From contig NZ_NRTA01000010.1 in NCBI RefSeq assembly GCF_002286735.1, forward strand, positions 62,001 to 126,000: 64,000 nucleotides of DNA, given 5' to 3'. The notes beneath the pieces were generated by a model. The model did no database searches, had not been told where the DNA came from, and was given only the letters and a program-made list of their open reading frames with translations. The position numbers and the translations under genes are program-made. Source of the stretch: Leptolyngbya sp. BC1307. GTDB lineage: Bacteria > Cyanobacteriota > Cyanobacteriia > Phormidesmidales > Phormidesmidaceae. Below, piece by piece: positions 35,559 through 36,797 of the stretch; position 1 is the stretch's first letter, and every line of letters starts with the position of its first letter.

Positions 35559-36032
35559 ATGCCACCTGCTCCTTCAGCCTGGTTTGAATATCCAATTCGC
35601 GTCCAGCCCCACCATACAGATTATGCGGGCGTCGTTTGGCATGGCACTTACGTCACCTGGCTAGAGTCAGCGCGAATCGAGTGCCTGCGAGCGGTTGGCA
35701 TCCCATTTGAGCAGTTAGTCAGCTTAGGATATGACCTGCCAGTGGTGGCATTAGATCTTCGCTACCGGCAGCCGCTGACGCTGGGCACGTCAGCTATTGT
35801 TAAAACCCGTTTGGCTCCGATGACAGGTATCCGCCTCAGCTGGCTATACGAAATTGAGACGGTTGGCCCGCAGCCGCAGCTATGTCTGACCGGACAGGTG
35901 ACGCTAGTGACGGTGAGTATGCGCGATCGCAAAGTAGTGCGCCGCCTGCCTGCTGAAGTCGCCGCCATGATCGCTCAGATTGCTGATTACTTTGAGGACC
36001 CGGCCATAGCGCCTGTGGAAAAAGCACCCTAA
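35559..36032 (+). CDS. Acyl-CoA thioesterase, hotdog fold (YbgC/4HBT type)
   Basis: 157 residues. The signature HHTDYAGVVWHGTYVTWLESAR contains the catalytic Asp and the hotdog helix. In cyanobacteria and plants a homologue (DHNA-CoA thioesterase) acts in phylloquinone synthesis, so that role is possible, but no men genes are adjacent. Confidence 0.85.
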   Translation: MPPAPSAWFEYPIRVQPHHTDYAGVVWHGTYVTWLESARIECLRAVGIPFEQLVSLGYDLPVVALDLRYRQPLTLGTSAIVKTRLAPMTGIRLSWLYEIETVGPQPQLCLTGQVTLVTVSMRDRKVVRRLPAEVAAMIAQIADYFEDPAIAPVEKAP

Positions 36033-36563
36033 ACCGTGACGCTAGAGGTAAGCGCCCGCTGCGAAGGTCTAGCGAATCGCCGTAGTGCCGGATCGCTGTA
36101 ACGCCTGCTACAAAATGGACTTGCAAACTTGATCGAATACCAAAATTAGACAGATTTTAGAAGTTTACAATTCTTAGTATTACAGCGATTTTCTCCACAG
36201 GCTTTCCACAGGTTTTCCACAGGCCACCGGGCGGTTTTCCACAGGCTAAAACGTGGGTGGGGGATTCTACCGATTTCTGTGGATTATCAAAAAGGAACTG
36301 CTGAGTGCGGTGATCAAGGACTAAATGTAAATTTATGTAACAAAAAGTAGGGCGAAATAGACCTTTCCAGCAAACGTGAATTTTTGCTAAAGCTCTCTAG
36401 CTCAACCGGGCACGTTGCTATTTCTAAGGCCATGTCCCACAATGAACAACACGTCAGCCGAACCCTCTGTCTGTCCTGGTTTGCGAGCCACTCAGGATAG
36501 ACAGAGCGTGAGAGTTTGTCATGCCAAAAGATAGTTAAGCGATTAGCGAGAGGAGCCTTTGCG
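36033..36563. other. Non-coding region carrying DnaA-box array (candidate oriC-like site)
   Basis: 531 bases with no gene. The left part (36127-36190) is AT-rich. It is followed by four TTTTCCACAGG-type units and a later inverted box, then more AT-rich sequence near 36315-36350. TTTTCCACA is the DnaA-box form known from cyanobacterial origins. DUF2811 follows on the right and a thioesterase lies on the left; dnaA and dnaN are absent from the window. Confidence 0.55.
36191..36245 (+). repeat. 11-bp-period array of DnaA-box-like units
   Basis: Consecutive 11-bp units: TTCTCCACAGG (36191-36201), CTTTCCACAGG (36202-36212), TTTTCCACAGG (36213-36223), a degenerate CCACCGGGCGG (36224-36234), and TTTTCCACAGG (36235-36245). 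An inverted TGTGGATTA (reads TAATCCACA) sits at 36278-36286. Two units match the cyanobacterial DnaA box exactly and two differ by one base. The exact 11-bp step would place all boxes on one face of the helix. Confidence 0.8.
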
Positions 36564-36797
36564 ATGCAGCAGTCTGTCAGTTTATCGGTTGAGATCCCTG
36601 AAGACCTGCACACGTCCGTGCAGAACTATTTAGAGGTTCATTCTGGATGGAGTCAGGATCGGTTATTTTGTGCCGCGATATCACTATTTTTGATGCAGAA
36701 CGGGGTGACTCAGCGTCAGGTCAGCCGCATCTACTTAGATAGCTTGTTTGGTCAGCAGCCCGAAAGCAATAAGGAAATGATTCGGTCTAAATTCTAG
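36564..36797 (+). CDS. DUF2811 family protein
   Basis: 77 residues from the ATG at 36564, with AGGAG at good spacing; an upstream open stretch to 36516 is rejected. Matches the small DUF2811 family: VEIPEDLHTSVQNYLEVHSGWSQDRLFCAAISLFLMQNG in pieces, ending RIYLDSLF. Helical, possibly ribbon-helix-helix-like. Function unknown. It directly flanks the DnaA-box-like array. Confidence 0.75.
   Translation: MQQSVSLSVEIPEDLHTSVQNYLEVHSGWSQDRLFCAAISLFLMQNGVTQRQVSRIYLDSLFGQQPESNKEMIRSKF

Follow-up and report, generated by a model that had tools for sequence, protein, structure and literature searches.

In a few model bacteria, DnaA is known to control genes outside the replication origin. Clusters of DnaA boxes outside oriC also titrate or inactivate DnaA in E. 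coli and B. subtilis, and IHF-dependent hydrolysis of DnaA-ATP is a property of the datA-like (DDAH) locus. Among described systems, the sda promoter of Bacillus subtilis, in which a DnaA-box array upstream of a small-protein gene forms a high-affinity site outside oriC (PMC4447404, PMC8203912), appears by analogy to be the nearest parallel to the locus described here. A review of DnaA in transcription does not mention cyanobacteria (PMC8203912), and our searches of the literature turned up nothing of relevance on a DnaA regulon in cyanobacteria or on DnaA ChIP-seq. The dnaA gene has been lost several times in cyanobacteria, and Synechocystis 6803 and Nostoc 7120 replicate without DnaA, yet keep dnaA (PMC7198777). 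Replication in S. elongatus depends on photosynthesis, and this dependence has been ascribed partly to factors, as yet unknown, that act on DnaA (PMC6478999).

The window analysed here is a 64-kb stretch of contig C10 of Leptolyngbya sp. BC1307. An earlier note on this DNA reported a box array in a 531-bp gap, and we found its description to be accurate. The gap (36033-36563) extends from the stop codon of a 4HBT thioesterase gene (36032) to the ATG of a DUF2811 gene (36564). Four TTTTCCACAGG-type units, all on the plus strand, occupy 36191-36245 of the gap in an 11-bp register: TTCTCCACAGG (36191-36201, also identified in the same-genus alignment), CTTTCCACAGG (36202-36212), TTTTCCACAGG (36213-36223) and a second TTTTCCACAGG (36235-36245). 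Between the third and fourth units lies a degenerate filler of one 11-bp unit that is barely a box (CCACCGGGCGG, 36224-36234, plus strand); in relatives, this position holds either a TTTCCCCAGG-like or an unrelated sequence. An inverted box, TAATCCACA, follows on the minus strand at 36278-36286, and alignments show that in other families it recurs about 42-45 bp past the last forward box, often in the degenerate form TGGGGAT. Clustering of the boxes is far beyond chance. Two TCCACAGG units at an 11-bp step occurred in 0 of 200 shuffles of the window, and TTTTCCACA-like 9-mers with up to one mismatch were not enriched across the window as a whole (13 versus 11.4 expected). We also observed a perfect inverted TTTTCCACA at 36014-36022, absent from the earlier note and located within the 3' end of the thioesterase gene. 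This box was treated as incidental because the thioesterase neighbour is apparently not common to all same-genus copies.

Both copies of DUF2811 in this genome have phased boxes upstream, on the strand of the gene. A scan for close TCCACA pairs returned oriC, the window array and C9:83392-83451 as the clear tight multi-box clusters, and the last of these is upstream of the second DUF2811 gene, on the same strand as that gene. The earlier note had named absence from relatives as a refutation; the array was present in 5/5 same-genus copies. More broadly, we examined 105 DUF2811 loci, drawn from about 35 families of cyanobacteria, and 97 had at least one canonical box upstream. In a set of 85 loci that excludes the dnaA-less genomes retaining DUF2811 and the two pseudogenes described below, and in which dnaA was separately checked in some but not all genomes, 77 had one or more canonical boxes in forward orientation within 700 bp of the gene and 66 had two or more. 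Upstream boxes in this set numbered 215 forward and 18 reverse, with 6.6 expected from shuffles, and five were found downstream of the gene. Steps of 21, 22 and 11 bp were the commonest, and clustering was also seen at 33 bp. All 20 additional loci, from ten further families, marine picocyanobacteria and the family f23, carried at least one canonical forward box. When CCCCA was allowed, each of 78 named loci from related genera, which partly overlap the 85- and 20-locus sets, had at least one box, and 72 had at least two. These locus counts do not equal independent events, because the genomes are kin and some give several loci. The upstream neighbours of DUF2811 fell into 59 groups over 104 loci, and its distance to dnaA was uniform in 15 genomes with a record that starts close to dnaA (KS p 0.61); the array therefore follows the gene.

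A canonical box was absent from about 8% of loci, several of which have phased TTTTCCCCAGG units; a dnaA-containing genome, G069, has no canonical box. The arrays at L014, L061, L066-L069 and L089 consist in part or entirely of TTTTCCCCAGG or GTTATCCCCAG units, mostly in a 10-12-bp register; such units may be low-affinity DnaA sites. The longest run, six units at 10-11-bp steps, is at L061 (1103-1163), in a genome of family f16.

The identification of these repeats as DnaA boxes, made in the earlier note, gained support from three directions: the match to the genome's own origin, loss together with dnaA and covariation of box type. TTTTCCACA is the main box of both the genome's oriC (7/9) and the array, and the array units equal the oriC boxes with the GG tail included. 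The f16 genomes have TTATCCACA in two places, at a box-rich cluster resembling oriC and in the array of DUF2811. We surveyed 386 genomes of the phylum and counted within Cyanobacteriia. DUF2811 was present in 170/170 genomes with dnaA (one of them, G149, giving a weak partial match only). Among 19 genomes without dnaA, it was absent from 13, a pseudogene in two and intact in four. Fisher's test for this co-occurrence gave 6e-19, a statistic that ignores kinship and overstates the number of independent events because losses of dnaA group together on the tree; by taxonomy, the dnaA-less genomes represent about nine separate lineages. Two genera (g45 and g76) hold members with and without dnaA, and in both the dnaA-less members have no DUF2811. 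The two pseudogenes (L081 and L082, in the dnaA-less genomes G344 and G190) are riddled with stop codons and are, on this evidence, gene loss caught in progress. General gene loss does not explain the absence of DUF2811, because DUF3067, an unrelated, small cyanobacterial family used as a control, was kept in 18/19 dnaA-less genomes.

The four dnaA-less genomes that keep an intact gene indicate that DUF2811 can serve without DnaA, at least temporarily. Their arrays are decayed. G100 and G412 have zero boxes upstream of the gene, and G224 and G307 have one box in the place of the array, where their sister G186 has three. G224 and G307 each also contain TATCCACA at a distance of about 105 bp from the gene, close to the place of one in their dnaA-containing sister. 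The dnaA-containing sisters of these four genomes mostly have two or three boxes, the others being G176 with one (on a short contig) and G069 with none. Because the arrays decay while the protein is retained, the sites would serve DnaA rather than DUF2811. The reading of the array as a cluster of DnaA boxes is well supported by these sequence comparisons.

We found that the array is part of a conserved upstream architecture. Immediately upstream of it lies a conserved AT-rich element, AAGTTTACAATTCTTAGTATT (36161-36181, plus strand; same-genus alignment), which recurs in other families as a CAATTCTTATT-like element. Alignments gave a consistent order of elements: the CAATTCTTATT-like element, the array, ACG, an inverted and often degenerate box, an HLR1-like element, a TTTCGT element and a core promoter, TTGACA...CACAAT in other families. 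The end of the array has the consensus TTTTCCACAGG-N10-GTTTTCCACAGG or near it. In the window, the predicted core promoter (36415-36443, plus strand), recognised by conservation and kept in same-genus copies, comprises a -35 element TTGCTA (36415-36420), a 17-bp spacer and a -10 element CACAAT (36438-36443). The HLR1-like site GTTACATAAATTTACATT (36324-36341, minus strand) lies between the array and this promoter and matches 18/18 positions of the RpaB consensus (G/T)TTACA(T/A)(T/A)NN(G/T)TTACA(T/A)(T/A), taken from PMC11633204. Matches of at least 16/18 occurred in 33/89 DUF2811 loci, compared with about two expected from shuffles. The locus resembles the RpaB/HLR1 promoters of cyanobacteria (PMC11633204) in having this 18/18 match some 110 bp upstream of the predicted start, and appears to differ from them in that the candidate HLR1 site is paired with a DnaA array. 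A search of the gap (36033-36563) for non-coding RNA gave no Rfam match.

We consider it likely, with a probability of roughly 0.73, that the array serves the DUF2811 promoter as a DnaA-responsive distal control element and that the protein acts in the DnaA pathway. The array would be a candidate high-affinity landing site, at which DnaA would load in vivo onto same-strand boxes one or two helical turns apart, a spacing that would align the DnaA molecules on one face of the DNA. Loaded DnaA would then alter transcription from the predicted promoter about 170 bp downstream, an effect whose sign we infer, and RpaB binding at the candidate HLR1 site between the two may add a light or redox input. 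DUF2811 is small, acidic and usually lost without DnaA, and is therefore most likely to act in the DnaA pathway: it may regulate DnaA or the start of replication in a feedback loop, or it may signal the DnaA state to a different process, by analogy with Sda in Bacillus. As at sda, the boxes are upstream of the conserved predicted promoter of a small-protein gene. The sda protein is unrelated, however, and belongs to another phylum and another array, and activation by DnaA is known for sda (PMC4447404). Compared with sda, the DUF2811 locus is distinguished by boxes on one strand in an 11-bp register, by its HLR1-like site and by the loss of the gene together with dnaA. Counting against distal control is the distance of 170-200 bp from the array to the predicted promoter, which is greater than that of a classical activator.

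The earlier note proposed an origin or a titration site, and of these two, pure titration fared better, although it became less likely once the array was seen to follow DUF2811 through changing neighbourhoods and positions. Under this explanation, the array would titrate or inactivate DnaA in the manner of datA, with DUF2811 a mere hitchhiker. Like E. coli datA and DARS, the array is a cluster of DnaA boxes away from oriC, and in several genomes the DUF2811 arrays are the tightest box clusters besides oriC. However, a datA-like array would be independent of any particular target gene, whereas this array tracks one gene, and not a chromosome position, through 59 neighbourhood groups, on one strand, in about 35 families and at both paralogues. 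The distance to dnaA ranges from near to far, whereas a titration site has a dosage that depends on its position. Titration would require no link with any one gene, and loss of dnaA would not be expected to remove the gene itself; for these reasons we favour control of DUF2811. Titration as the sole role is improbable; as a side effect of the array it is possible.

Less probable still is an operator for another protein that resembles DnaA boxes by chance, DUF2811 itself being one such protein if it were a ribbon-helix-helix (RHH) autoregulator. RHH repressors use phased repeats. The window gene (36564-36797, plus strand), the putative target of the array, encodes 77 amino acids and matches Pfam PF10929 with an E value of 2.3e-24 (85.9 bits, against a cut-off of 26.6); its closest named relatives are from Phormidesmis priestleyi and Phormidesmis sp., which places the genome in the Phormidesmis group. 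DUF2811 proteins are mostly 63-85 residues long. We found no relatives by sequence in NCBIfam, the PDB (profile search) or phages, no other significant Pfam family and no paper that mentions DUF2811. Among members of the phylum that have dnaA but fall outside Cyanobacteriia, the search for PF10929 gave a single borderline match (G150). A structure model of moderate confidence (pLDDT 70) contains helices at residues 13-25, 31-45 and 51-62; a second model, of a shorter DUF2811 type, brought no improvement (pLDDT 72). Foldseek returned no significant match for the DUF2811 model, and the top two structural neighbours given by VIA, both weak, were the RHH proteins PrpA (7ycv) and ParD2 (7r5a), with Z 3.4 over 46-48 residues. 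This modelled resemblance to the RHH fold is suggestive only. Against an operator of this kind, the array units are identical to the genome's own oriC boxes down to the GG tail, the box type of the array changes along with that of oriC and arrays decay on loss of dnaA although the protein is retained. The acidity of DUF2811 (median pI 5.0) is also unlike that of most DNA binders.

We located a candidate origin of canonical type elsewhere in the genome. On contig C35, dnaA is followed by a gap with nine boxes in two opposed sets and then by dnaN (recognised from sequence), so the array on C10 adjoins neither gene, as the earlier note had supposed. The last box of this oriC is followed by CTACTACTACTAG, the signature of DnaA-trios, which are 3'-GAT-5' repeats after the last box (PMC8287927); CTACTACTACTAG and any such trios are absent after the last array box in the window. 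The array shares TTTTCCACA(GG) boxes and 11-bp tandem steps with cyanobacterial oriC regions, located between dnaA and dnaN or adjacent to dnaN (PMC4674748), and differs from them in that these have opposed boxes and trios. The window's own genome is split into 222 contigs, and skew was therefore read from a same-genus genome, G002. There, GC skew sampled in 34 stretches of 20 kb changed from -0.058 just before to +0.026 just after an oriC-type box cluster at 1.12 Mb, and no comparable switch was sampled around its first DUF2811 locus; nor did the window show a switch at 36 kb. This skew evidence alone is not decisive because, as often in cyanobacteria, the skew is weak. A second or alternative origin, which the AT-rich stretch adjoining the boxes and the several or irregular origins used by many cyanobacteria (PMC7198777) might suggest, was therefore rejected as highly implausible: oriC lies at dnaA-dnaN, the array has no trios but a conserved predicted promoter and gene downstream, and the skew sampled in G002 switches at the oriC-type cluster, with no comparable switch at DUF2811.

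Control of DUF2811 by DnaA would bear on two features of cyanobacterial replication. An array kept across cyanobacteria on one uncharacterised gene, itself usually lost along with dnaA, makes DUF2811 a specific candidate for the factor coupling replication to photosynthesis. In its fullest form, to which we give somewhat less than even odds, DUF2811 would be a cyanobacterial DnaA regulator that is itself controlled by DnaA, receives light or redox input through RpaB and gates replication by photosynthesis through feedback. A role for DnaA as a transcription factor may also explain why dnaA is retained in Synechocystis 6803 and Nostoc 7120.

Additionally, we observed an extra DnaA-box cluster with a 12-bp step in same-genus genomes; no equivalent box pair was seen in the window's genome. 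The cluster is at L097 2456-2475, L098 2614-2645, L099 2518-2537, L100 2334-2353 and L101 2288-2307, and in L097 and L099, the two loci where the genes were read, it lies between recJ-like and DUF4349-like genes (named from sequence).
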